DNA of 34,870 nt from Betaproteobacteria bacterium (GTDB taxonomy: Bacteria > Pseudomonadota > Gammaproteobacteria > Burkholderiales > Casimicrobiaceae), in contig JAGXBK010000017.1 of assembly GCA_018971195.1 (NCBI GenBank), forward strand, positions 1 to 34,870, given 5' to 3'. The notes under the pieces are model-generated. The model searched no databases, was not told where the DNA came from, and worked only from the letters and a program-made list of their open reading frames with translations. Made by a program: the position numbers and the translations under genes. Of this stretch, positions 18,087-22,449 are shown one piece after another (position 1 is the stretch's first letter; every line of letters starts with the position of its first letter).

Positions 18087-18995
18087 GTGCAACGCTTGGA
18101 CACATCGGAACCGACGGTGACGCCGATCGTCACGCTCGACATCGAGCGCTGGCGGCCGGAGGTTCGCGCGCAGGACACCGAGCGCTGCGCGCGGGCGCTG
18201 GAGGCAGGCGCCGTGCTCGTGCTGCCGCGCCTGCCTTTCGCCATCGCGCCGGATGAAACCCGCTTTCTCGACGTCCGCTGGTCCGACGGCAAGGCCAAGA
18301 ACATCAGTCTCGACGGTGCGTCGATCCGGGGAGCGGTTGGCAGCGCCGACGATCTCGCCGCGCTCGCGCGGATGGTCGGGCGCTTCGCCGCCGATGCGAG
18401 CGCGCTCGTCACGGCGCTGTTCCCGCGTTACGCGCCGTGGTTGAAGCGCGCGCGCACGAGCTACCGCCCGCACGGCGTTACCGGCCGCGCGATGTCCTGG
18501 CGCAAGGACGACACGCGTCTGCACGTCGACGCCTTCCCGTCGCGCCCGACCCGCGGCGAGCGGATCCTGCGCGTGTTCTCCAACGTCAGCCCGCAGGGCG
18601 AGGATCGCGTCTGGCGCGTCGGCGAGCCTTTCGAGGCGATGGCGCGGCGCCTGCTGCCGCGGGTGCGCCCGATGCTCCCGGGCGAGGCGGCGTGCCTGTC
18701 GGCGCTGCACGTCACGCGGGGGCGGCGCAGCGAATACGACCACATGATGCTGGGGCTGCACGACTGCGCCAAGAGCGACCTCGGCTACCAGCGCGCGTCG
18801 CCGCAGCGCGAGGTCCGCTTCGCGCCGGGCACGACGTGGATCTGCTACTCCGACCAGGTGATGCACGCCGCGGCATCGGGGCAGTACATGCTCGAGCAGA
18901 CGACGCACCTGCCGCTCGACGCGCTCTACGATCCGGGCTCGTCGCCGCTCACCATCCTGGAGCGCATCAGCGGCCGCCCGCTGGTCGACGCGTAG
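18087..18995 (+). CDS. kdoO: Kdo hydroxylase (Fe(II)/2-oxoglutarate dioxygenase)
   Basis: 302 residues. I read it as the lipopolysaccharide Kdo 3-hydroxylase described in Burkholderia and Yersinia, which converts Kdo of the inner core to Ko with Fe(II), oxygen and 2-oxoglutarate. The key segment is [20 protein letters not shown], followed by SNV. H146 and D148 with the distal H260 (in SDQVMHAA) form a plausible 2-His-1-carboxylate iron site. There is no signal peptide or membrane helix. The gene sits between gltD (four bases) and hemE (three bases) on one strand, so it is likely co-transcribed although its pathway differs. The GTG at 18087 is the furthest upstream start compatible with gltD; a slightly later start cannot be excluded. 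Confidence 0.85.
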
Positions 18996-18998
18996 CCG

Positions 18999-20114
18999 AT
19001 GCCACTCGAGAACGACACGCTGCTGCGTGCGCTTCGGCGCGAGCCCGTCGACCACGTTCCGGTATGGCTGATGCGCCAGGCGGGCCGCTATCTTCCCGAG
19101 TACGCAGCGTTGCGCGCCCGTGCGGGAAGCTTCATGGCGCTCGCGACGACGCCGTCGCTCGCGACCGAAGCGACGCTGCAACCGCTCGCCCGCTTTCCGC
19201 TCGATGCGGCGATCCTCTTCTCGGACATCCTGACCATTCCCGACGCGATGGGGCTGGGCCTGTCGTTCGCCGAGGGCGAAGGCCCGCGGTTCGCCCGCGC
19301 CGTCGCCGACGAGGCGTCGATTGGCGCACTCGAGGTCCCCGACCTTTCGAGGCTGTCCTACGTCTTCGATGCGGTCGGGCAGATCAAGCGGGCCCTGGCC
19401 GGGCGCGTACCGCTGATCGGCTTCGCCGGCAGCCCGTTCACGCTCGCCTGCTACATGATCGAAGGCGGGGCCAGCGACGACTTCGCGACGGTCCGAAAGA
19501 TGGCATTCGCGCGACCGGATCTGCTCGACCGCATCGTCGCCGTCAATGCCGACGCGGTCGCGGGCTACCTGGCCGAGCAGCTGCGGGCGGGCGCAGATGC
19601 GTTGATGCTCTTCGACACCTGGGGTGGGCTGCTCTGCGAGCCTGCGTATCGCCGCTTTTCCCTCGAGCCGATGCGCAGGGTGCTGCGCCGATTGCCTGCT
19701 GGGGTCCCGACGATCCTGTTCACCAAGGGGCGCGCGGGCTCACTGGCGTCGATCGCGGAGTCGGGGGCGAGCTGCATGGGCCTCGACTGGACGGCCGACC
19801 TGGGCGAGGCGCGCCGGCGTCATGGCGCAAGGATCGCAATCCAGGGGAATCTCGACCCGCTGGCGTTGCTGACCGACCCGCGCAGCGTCGAAGCGGCGGT
19901 GGCGGACCTGCTGTGCGCCGCCGGACCGGAGCCGGGTTACGTGTTCAACCTGGGGCACGGCATCGTTCCGGCAACCCCGCCCGAGAATGTCGCAGCGCTG
20001 GTCGCCGCCGTGCACGCGATCTCGCGCAGCGCCACGCCCGGCGCAGTTGCACGCGGTGTCGCCCCGGGAGAATCGGCCGCAAGCCGCGCCGGGCCTCGCG
20101 TTCACGGGGGTTGA
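18999..20114 (+). CDS. hemE: Uroporphyrinogen decarboxylase
   Basis: 371 residues. It removes four carboxyl groups from uroporphyrinogen III to give coproporphyrinogen III in haem synthesis. [11 protein letters not shown] holds R26 and R30 of the substrate-binding signature, [13 protein letters not shown] holds the key Asp (D76), and [17 protein letters not shown] and FNLGHGI match the family. Most bacterial HemE proteins have about 345-360 residues; this one has an Ala/Gly/Arg-rich tail of about 20 residues after the conserved end HAISRSA. The tail could be genuine or simply reflect a late stop in GC-rich sequence. The start is three bases after the Kdo hydroxylase stop. Confidence 0.96.
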
Positions 20115-20466
20115 CAAACGCGGCGACCTCGAGGGCGCGTCCCCAGTTATGCACAAAATCGAGCCCGGCGTCCTACACGGGGCCATATGACGAATTTTGC
20201 ACGAAGCGCAAGGGATAACCCGCTGAAAACAGGCGGCAATTTATGGGCCGTCACCATAATGCAACATTCGCGCCATGATCGCGCCCGCCGGCCGCTGTCG
20301 CAGAGCGATGACTTACGCACAAAGTTATCCACATCAAATGTCGGCCCGTTTTCCAAGATATGTCCTAAATTAAGGGGTTGCGTGAGTAAGCTTAGGCCAG
20401 GCCTCAACTGTCGCGCGGTGGTGTTACGCGCTCCGGAAGCCGCGACCTGATCAGCGCCGGAATGGC
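20115..20466. other. Intergenic region hemE-priA, relatively AT-rich
   Basis: No gene is supported across about 350 bases. Short open frames at 20187-20450 (plus) and 20147-20407 (minus) have no recognisable protein character and overlap the DnaA-box cluster. The stretch has several A/T-rich patches, among them the area around 20344-20376 and the AATTT/TTTAT runs at 20191-20245. They stand out against the roughly two-thirds-GC surroundings. It must also hold the priA promoter, but no good -35/-10 pair was found. Confidence 0.6.
20147..20333 (+). promoter_or_regulatory. Cluster of DnaA-box sequences
   Basis: Two exact matches to the DnaA-box consensus TTWTNCACA are present: TTATGCACA at 20147-20155 and TTATCCACA at 20325-20333. 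Two one-mismatch copies lie between them: TTTTGCACG at 20195-20203 and TTACGCACA at 20313-20321. The last is three bases before the perfect TTATCCACA box, a closely spaced pair. All four point the same way. Such boxes bind the initiator DnaA; functions could be origin activity, DnaA titration or regulation of priA or hemE. No dnaA, dnaN, gyrB or parAB gene is nearby. Confidence 0.6.
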
Positions 20467-22449
20467 ATGGGAATCGCCCGAGTTGCGCTGCCGGTCGCGG
20501 TCCCCCACGCGTTCGACTACTGGATACCCGAGGGCCTCGACGTACGTCGAGGCTCGGTCGTGCGCGTGCGCCTCGCGAACCGCAGCAGCCTCGGCGTCGT
20601 GGTCGGGATCGATTCTGCTTCCGAGCCCGGACTGCGCGTGCAGCCGATCGACGAGGTCATCGCAATCCCGCCGATCGCCGACGAGATCCTGGACCTCGCC
20701 CTGTTCGTCGGCCGCTACTACCAGGCGGCGCCGGGCCTCGCACTCGAGCTCGCGGTGCCGCCGTCCTGCAAGGCTCGGTCGCGCCGACGCGACGGCGCCG
20801 GCGTCGCCGATGTCCCGCAGCTTGCCCCTGCCTCGCACGCGCTGAACCCGGCGCAGCGCGCGGCAGCGCAGGCGATCCTCGACGCGCGCGGAACCTCCGC
20901 CGTCTTCATGCTGCACGGGGTCACCGGCAGCGGCAAGACCGAGGTCTACCTCGCGGCTGCCCAGGACGCGGTGGAGCGCGGCGGCCAGGTGCTGATCCTG
21001 ATGCCGGAGATCAACCTGACCCCGCAGTTCGAGCTGCGCGTGCGCGCCGCACTGCCCGGCATACGGGCGGTGACGCTGCACAGCGGCCTCGCCGCCGGCA
21101 CGCGCCGCGCGAGCTGGGATGCCGCGGCGAGCGGTGCGGCGCGGATCGTCCTCGGAACGCGCCTTGCCATGTTCACCCCGATGCCGGAGCTTGCGCTGGT
21201 CGTCGTCGACGAGGAGCACGACGATTCGTTCAAGCAGCAGGAAGCCGTCCGCTATCACGCGCGCGACCTCGCGATACTTCGCGCCCGCAGGCGTGGCATC
21301 CCGGTCGTCTTGGGGAGCGCCACGCCGTCGCTCGAGACCTGGGCGCGCTCGCGGCAGGGCCGCTACCGCGCGCTGGCGCTTCCCGCGCGCGCCGATCCGC
21401 GCGCGTCGCCGCCCTCGATCGCGTTCGTCCCGTTGCGGGGATCGCGAACGCAGGACGGCCTCTCGCCGCCGCTGCGCGACGCCATTGCGCAGCGACTTGC
21501 GCGCCGCGAGCAGTCGCTGCTGTTCATCAACCGCCGGGGCTACGCGCCTTCGCTCAAGTGCGCGTCGTGCGCCTGGGAATCGGAATGCCCGCGCTGCGCT
21601 GCGCGGCTGGTGGTCCATCACGCGCCGGATCGGCTGCGCTGCCATCATTGCGCGCACGTCGAGCGCGTCACCCGCGCATGCCCGCAGTGCGGCAACGTCG
21701 ACCTGACGCCGCTGGGCTTCGGCACGCAACGCCTCGAGCAGGCGATACGAACGGCGTTTCCGCAGGCGCGGGTCGCGCGCATCGACCGCGACACGACGCG
21801 AAGCCGCGGCGCTTTCGCCGCGGTCAGGCAGCAGGTCGAGGACCTCGAGGTCGACATCCTGGTCGGAACGCAGATGCTCGCCAAGGGTCACGATTTTCCG
21901 CGCCTCACCCTGGTCGGCATCCTGGGCGCCGACAACGCGCTCTACAGCGCCGATTTTCGCGCGACCGAGCGCCTGGTCGCCTTGCTGATGCAGGTTGCCG
22001 GTCGCGCCGGTCGCGCCGGCCTGCCGGGGCAGGTGATCGTGCAGACCGATTTTCCCGACCACCCCGTCTACCGCGCCCTGGCGACGCAGGATTACGCCGC
22101 GTTCGCCGACGAGCTTCTCGCCGAACGCGAGCTGGCACAGCTGCCACCGGTCACGCGCGTCGCGCTGCTCGCCGCGGAGGCGCACTCACGCGACGACGTC
22201 GATCGCTTTCTCGCCTCCGCCGTCGAACGGGCGCACGCGCTCGCGGAGGGGGCCGGCGGCATCGAGGTCTTCCCCCCGGTACCTGCGGCGATGGCGCGCA
22301 GGGCGGGCTACGAGCGCGGGCAGGTTCTCGTCCAGTGCCCGCGGCGCGCGCCGCTGCAGGCGTTCCTGCCACGCTGGCGCGACGCGCTGGTCGGCATCGG
22401 CGGATCGAAGCTGCGGTGGGCGATCGACGTCGATCCGGTGGCGTTCTGA
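20467..22449 (+). CDS. priA: Replication restart helicase PriA, short form
   Basis: 660 residues. PriA recognises stalled forks and loads the replicative helicase. The N-terminal 3'-end-binding domain occupies about residues 1-100. Walker A GVTGSGKT is at 151-158 and DEEH at 248-251. Eight Cys of the two zinc sites are all present (365, 368, 374, 377, 392, 395, 405, 408), and helicase motifs VGTQMLAKGHDFP and LMQVAGRAGR follow. In E. coli PriA (about 730 residues) a winged-helix domain separates the N-terminal domain from Walker A. Here only about 50 residues, partly basic and low-complexity, lie between residue 100 and Walker A, so that domain appears to be missing. The ATG at 20467 gives the usual start ARVALPV. 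Confidence 0.95.
   Translation: MGIARVALPVAVPHAFDYWIPEGLDVRRGSVVRVRLANRSSLGVVVGIDSASEPGLRVQPIDEVIAIPPIADEILDLALFVGRYYQAAPGLALELAVPPSCKARSRRRDGAGVADVPQLAPASHALNPAQRAAAQAILDARGTSAVFMLHGVTGSGKTEVYLAAAQDAVERGGQVLILMPEINLTPQFELRVRAALPGIRAVTLHSGLAAGTRRASWDAAASGAARIVLGTRLAMFTPMPELALVVVDEEHDDSFKQQEAVRYHARDLAILRARRRGIPVVLGSATPSLETWARSRQGRYRALALPARADPRASPPSIAFVPLRGSRTQDGLSPPLRDAIAQRLARREQSLLFINRRGYAPSLKCASCAWESECPRCAARLVVHHAPDRLRCHHCAHVERVTRACPQCGNVDLTPLGFGTQRLEQAIRTAFPQARVARIDRDTTRSRGAFAAVRQQVEDLEVDILVGTQMLAKGHDFPRLTLVGILGADNALYSADFRATERLVALLMQVAGRAGRAGLPGQVIVQTDFPDHPVYRALATQDYAAFADELLAERELAQLPPVTRVALLAAEAHSRDDVDRFLASAVERAHALAEGAGGIEVFPPVPAAMARRAGYERGQVLVQCPRRAPLQAFLPRWRDALVGIGGSKLRWAIDVDPVAF

Follow-up and report, generated by a model that had tools for sequence, protein, structure and literature searches.

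The window analysed here, a stretch of 34,870 nucleotides from a Betaproteobacteria bacterium, encodes hemE and priA one after the other on the plus strand, and the gap between the two genes holds a cluster of DnaA boxes around a putative IHF site (Table 1). A sequence-only reading of this DNA had pointed to two exact and two one-mismatch boxes, all in one orientation, within 187 bases, and we found these four boxes as described, all on the plus strand, the hemE stop codon lying 32 bp 5' of the distal box (20147). The box at 20195 is weak and was absent from the relatives in a comparison of 10 loci (nine of the same genus including the window, and one of another family), and it is probably fortuitous. 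We also found that the gap is AT-richer (57.7% GC) than the GC-rich window as a whole, as that reading had noted. The total number of boxes with at most one mismatch in the whole window is ordinary (10, compared with 6.8 in shuffled sequence, with 13 of 100 shuffles reaching 10). It is the clustering that is unusual: both exact boxes of the window, and four of all 10 boxes with at most one mismatch, fall within 187 bp. The genome to which the window belongs (G000, 3.17 Mb) contains nine exact matches to TTWTNCACA, two of them in the hemE-priA gap, and 15 matches to a reversed-pattern control.

Table 1. Genes and DnaA-related features of the hemE-priA region (positions are those of the window; offsets are relative to box II)
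Feature	Position	Strand	Remarks
hemE (uroporphyrinogen decarboxylase)	18999..20114	+	Pfam URO-D, E 3e-123
Distal DnaA box TTATGCACA	20147..20155	+	Exact; -178 from box II; datA box 2-like
Weak DnaA-like box TTTTGCACG	20195..20203	+	1 mismatch to TTWTNCACA, 2 to TTATNCACA
Putative IHF site TTTCAGCGGGTTA	20216..20228	-	7/9 consensus letters; position coincides exactly with the -109 slot of the relatives
DnaA box III-like TTACGCACA	20313..20321	+	1 mismatch; 97 bp past the start of the IHF slot, 12 bp before box II
DnaA box II TTATCCACA	20325..20333	+	Exact; anchor, position 0
Expected site of inverted DARS-type box I	20339..20347	-	Degenerate in the window, 3/8 letters
priA (primosomal helicase)	20467..22449	+	Pfam PriA_3primeBD, PriA_C, Zn_ribbon_PriA; start 133 bp after box II

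The two exact boxes had been judged too many for chance, and this judgement held: the Poisson probability of finding two in one given 187-bp stretch is 1.4e-7, or about 0.002 over the roughly 17,000 such stretches, and their spacing is conserved. Across the 10 compared loci, the distal box, boxes III and II and the IHF slot are retained while the remaining DNA of the gap has diverged; the distance between the boxes at 20147 and 20313 is 165-166 bp in 10 out of 10, and the IHF slot keeps seven or eight of nine letters in every one. These findings confirm that the DnaA-box cluster between hemE and priA is real, its conservation being stronger proof than its clustering. Short BLAST matches without a box cluster (L023, L026 and L030-L033) were dropped, and L027, in which the boxes have diverged, was used solely for the alignment. 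No DNA match to the locus was obtained from 25 of 41 genomes, which has no bearing on the presence of the element in them. No RNA element was matched by Rfam in positions 18900-21000 up to an E-value of 1. A TTGACAA block 5' of the first box contains the hemE stop codon and yielded no good -10. The same-genus alignment also contains a short conserved AT-rich block at about 20360-20382 of the window (AAATNAAG..TTG), around +45 after box II.

We examined 109 hemE loci in Burkholderiales (29 plus 80 named), in 76 of which priA lies next to hemE. We looked for the same boxes in the hemE-priA gaps of relatives, a check that the sequence-only reading had proposed: the gaps of these 76 loci hold 149 exact boxes in 37.7 kb, versus 14 in 455 kb of flanking sequence. 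The exact forward TTATCCACA is present in 61 of the 76 gaps and missing in 15, and seven gaps contain no exact box at all. The layout was measured around 64 anchors, with TTATCCACA set at position 0. An exact box on the same strand lies at -164 to -191 in 61 out of 64 anchors, and a reverse box in that range in none. The score for forward boxes peaks at -12 (6.41 of 8, background 2.01), where box III matches in at least six of eight letters in 63 of the 64. An inverted box at +14 has at least six of eight letters in 30 anchors and at least seven in 15.

The IHF consensus is WATCAANNNNTTR. Matches to all nine letters, on the minus strand near -109, were observed in 21 of 63 loci (0.5 in shuffled sequence), 20 of these 21 at -112 to -106, and matches to at least eight letters in 52 of 63 (10.3 in shuffled sequence). 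Among 55 loci that carry the -12/0/+14 trio of boxes III, II and inverted I, a set that partly overlaps with the 63, an IHF site occupies the slot on the minus strand in 38 and on the plus strand in one, with other slots reaching at most two. The interval from IHF to box III is 96-98 bp in 35 of 43 loci, and the distances from the distal box to IHF group near 56-57, 66-70 and 76-79 bp, in steps of about one helical turn. Among the named organisms that show this layout are Thiobacillus thioparus, Chromobacterium aquaticum, Pseudogulbenkiania ferrooxidans, a Herminiimonas sp. and Paraburkholderia tropica. In three loci (L070, L087 and L126) a single hemE-priA gap contains two tandem copies of the box module, separated by about 350 to 470 bp.

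The element also occurs without priA. Of the 33 hemE loci without an adjacent priA, six show an exact box no more than 700 bp from hemE, and four of these, all from one family (L080, L085, L086 and L089), carry the complete element downstream of hemE, in inverted sense and between convergent genes, with no priA found. In these four, the distal box lies at -176 or -177, an IHF match of eight out of nine letters lies at -109, and all three core boxes are present; the gene whose 3' end faces the element encodes a 5-FTHF cyclo-ligase (three loci) or a dehydrogenase (one locus). Most hemE loci of Nitrosomonadaceae (L112, L114 and L116 among them) have neither an adjacent priA nor an exact box in the first 700 bp downstream of hemE. 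One Nitrosomonadaceae locus, L147, has an isolated exact box there.

Genome-wide, we found the trio, with at most three mismatches, in 156 of 200 Burkholderiales genomes and in 215 of 276 genomes of the class; a backward control pattern gave no match in either set, and a control with swapped spacers matched in one of 200 genomes. A simpler pair pattern was found in 129 of 200 genomes but also had some control matches and is not counted as proof. When 150 listed trio places were compared with 156 listed hemE places, at least 28 trios proved to be within 1.6 kb downstream of hemE, and 28 out of 28 are on the hemE strand. When the neighbours of the trio were inspected in 30 loci of the order, xseA was found on the opposite strand in 15 and priA downstream in nine; in 28 loci from other orders, priA was downstream in eight. 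For seven of these eight, no hemE lies within about 1.5 kb of sequence examined, and the earlier suggestion of a relic of a Caulobacter-type origin at hemE is thus needless. The genome of the window itself has a complete DARS-type trio between xseA and glnS (C32:26549-26583, L013 1550-1584); this copy lacks a distal box and has, at -98, an IHF match of eight out of nine letters on the plus strand. Other trios were seen next to parE/uup-like and yifB-like genes (L236 and L234).

Alphaproteobacterial origins, as in Caulobacter and Rickettsia, lie beside hemE, and an origin was among the options raised in the sequence-only reading. GC skew was sampled in four single-contig Burkholderiales chromosomes with mapped dnaA and hemE; the window's own genome is fragmented (288 contigs, 98% complete). 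We found no minus-to-plus switch at the hemE gap in these four relatives, where between 0.09 and 1.4 Mb separate the gap from dnaA. The skew is plus on both sides of the gap in G483 (280 kb), where it switches near dnaA, and minus on both sides in G031 (5.09 Mb), where the switch falls between 5.14 and 0.02 Mb. In G481 the gap (1.40 Mb) is 1.4 Mb from dnaA and inside the plus arm, and the skew switches near 0 and near 2.1 Mb. The skew of G447 is noisy, with the minus-to-plus switch absent at 4.98 Mb, and that of a 342-kb contig from the same genus as the window (G015 C3) is weak and does not switch at the gap. As there is no origin-type switch at the gap, we reject oriC at this place for the relatives tested, and the skew data agree with the earlier remark that betaproteobacterial origins normally lie near dnaA.

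For the window, an origin or second origin in the gap is very improbable, although several observations would suit one besides the alphaproteobacterial precedent. The window's own dnaA, on a separate contig (C189) in the order rnpA-rpmH-dnaA, has only a single exact box upstream (L011, about 4344) and no cluster in the stretch read, and in 25 out of 32 single-contig genomes (lengths rounded to 0.1 Mb) the distance between hemE and dnaA is at most about a quarter of a replichore. According to a passage of PMC2864759, a skew transition of Cupriavidus metallidurans CHR1 lies some 90 kb away from dnaA and adjoins 213 nt of sequence with three perfect DnaA boxes, which may or may not be the hemE-priA gap. 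Against an origin stand the clear skew of G483, G031 and G481, the missing switch in the noisy G447 and in G015 C3, and the fact that G028 and G348 retain elements at distances of 1.1 to 1.6 Mb from dnaA. What the gap has in common with the origins of Caulobacter and Rickettsia is the DnaA boxes adjoining hemE; unlike those origins, it shows no origin skew in the relatives, and the element can part from hemE and remain with priA, or lie next to xseA. A DnaA-box cluster beside hemE is no proof of oriC, which calls for caution in origin finders.

We weighed three further explanations. A DnaA- and IHF-dependent element controlling priA, by which transcription of the restart helicase would be timed with initiation, had been proposed in the sequence-only reading and fits the position just upstream of priA in the window and in the priA-linked trios of Burkholderiales and other orders counted above. 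That the element adjoins priA in several orders would be consistent with a promoter element as well, and E. coli DARS1 lies upstream of uvrB, so such sites can adjoin repair genes. However, the proposal is weakened by the trios that sit beside xseA on the opposite strand and by the four loci of one family in which the full element is flanked by convergent genes and no priA was found. No such element is present in the priA-rpmE gap of E. coli, and a passage of PMC5010248 reports that the activity of DARS and datA suffers from transcription. Taking these points together, we consider control of priA unlikely. The scarcity of exact boxes genome-wide, with two of the nine in this gap, and the presence of multiple strong boxes would be expected of a passive sink that merely titrates DnaA, without looping or any effect on its nucleotide. 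Such a sink needs neither fixed spacings nor a single strand sense nor a fixed IHF slot, and we hold it to be quite improbable. Of the options raised earlier, a DnaA-titration locus agrees best with the evidence, but what we observe is a more specific arrangement, a DnaA-IHF-DnaA layout common to E. coli datA and DARS. As for a chance cluster or a decayed, functionless relic in the genus of the window, the lost inverted box and the complete trio elsewhere in the same genome (C32) would be compatible with decay, whereas the retention of the distal box, boxes III and II and the IHF slot in 10 loci with otherwise diverging gaps makes it extremely improbable.

We propose that the hemE-priA gap probably contains a regulatory locus of the datA/DARS type, acting through DnaA and IHF and distinct from the origin. 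In the window, DnaA would bind the distal box at 20147 and the pair at 20313 and 20325, and IHF would bend the DNA at about 20216, thereby drawing together the DnaA groups on either side. Where relatives carry an inverted box at +14, the pair would turn into a DARS-type core, which could help ADP-DnaA to lose its nucleotide. The genus of the window has no inverted box, and its same-direction boxes around one IHF site would resemble the minimal datA of E. coli. A datA-like activity is the likeliest in this genus: the element may retain DnaA and stimulate the hydrolysis of its ATP once initiation has taken place. Our results demonstrate the anatomy of the element, how its parts are conserved and spaced, that it can exist apart from priA in one family, and that it lies away from the origin indicated by skew in four relatives; binding by both proteins, the loop and the way in which DnaA would be affected are what we infer from this arrangement. 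The genome of the window encodes IHF alpha (a match over the cut-off), and its DnaA is 51% identical to that of E. coli, with 20 of 21 inspected residues kept, including R281, R285, L290, R334 and D269. Little is known about how DnaA is reset between replication rounds in betaproteobacteria, and a passage of PMC4948915 describes the exact location of the c1 origin of Burkholderia cenocepacia as unclear. The gap offers a delimited target of 187 bp in which the boxes and the IHF slot are mapped; as the inverted box is present in some natural variants and absent from others, datA-like and DARS-like action could be separated experimentally. In the open-licence papers that our literature search covered, we found no report of such an element at hemE-priA or xseA.

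To compare the element with its E. coli counterparts, we numbered the boxes of datA and DARS in the E. coli sequence ourselves, according to their published spacing and orientation. In datA, box 7 is followed after 12 bp by box 2, after a further 65 bp by the IHF-binding site (IBS), after 97 bp by box 3 and after 12 bp by the inverted box 4; from the start of box 7 to the end of box 3 we measured 183 bp, in agreement with the figure in the published review. Minimal datA is described in a passage of PMC5742627 as 183 bp long, with boxes 2, 3 and 7 in one direction and one IBS, and as being looped by IHF, which promotes hydrolysis of DnaA-ATP. The window element is similar in length (187 bp) and in build, with the boxes at 20147, 20313 and 20325 all on the plus strand and flanking one IHF slot (with only seven of nine letters) of the same strand sense. 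Its intervals are 69 bp from box to IHF, 97 bp from IHF to box and 12 bp from box to box, compared with 65 and 97 bp for the first two in datA; the 97-bp distance, shared with a single E. coli locus, could be a coincidence. Unlike datA, the window has no counterpart of box 7 at 12 bp before 20147 (GCGCGTCCC, one of eight letters), it carries an extra box at +12 in the same direction where datA has the inverted box 4, and its flanking genes are different (datA lies downstream of glyVXY).

The likeness to DARS lies in the core. E. coli DARS1 has the identical -12/0/+14 trio, and the weaker boxes of DARS2 fit the same offsets. According to passages of PMC5742627, boxes I-III are equally spaced in both DARS with box I reversed, and a passage of PMC10380432 describes this inverted box I, head-to-head with box II, as essential. 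The same order, box III, 12 bp, box II, 14 bp, inverted box I, is what we observed in 30 of the 64 hemE-priA anchors of relatives. The window keeps the boxes at 20313 and 20325, in the same direction and 12 bp apart, but not the inverted box I (three of eight letters), so the DARS core is incomplete there. The IHF slot of the relatives lies on the box III side, whereas the footprinted IHF sites IBS1-2 of E. coli DARS2, which we assign to an IHF pair at +217/+233 that fits the published spacing, are apparently on the box I side. E. coli DARS2 (L228) also has, separate from that pair, an IHF match of eight out of nine letters on the minus strand at -109, the slot used by the relatives. DARS2 is attributed to beta- or gammaproteobacteria in a passage of PMC5742627 and to gammaproteobacteria only in PMC4245941, and the review PMC10380432 cites Fujimitsu 2009 for DARS-like sequences across many proteobacteria; broad conservation of DARS-like sequences is not claimed as new here.

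Judged by sequence, the relatives combine a datA-like loop with a DARS-like core, and the genus of the window has retained the former and lost the inverted box of the latter. We file the window locus under neither datA nor DARS, since a search of the window for datA box 7 and for DARS box I found neither. More tentatively, one ancestral DnaA-IHF switch may have existed across Gammaproteobacteria in the GTDB sense, betaproteobacteria included, with a distal box, IHF at -109 and a III-II-I core, present once or a few times in each genome, next to priA and xseA. Such a switch would fuse the loop of datA with the core of DARS, and E. coli datA and DARS might then be specialised or decayed versions of it.
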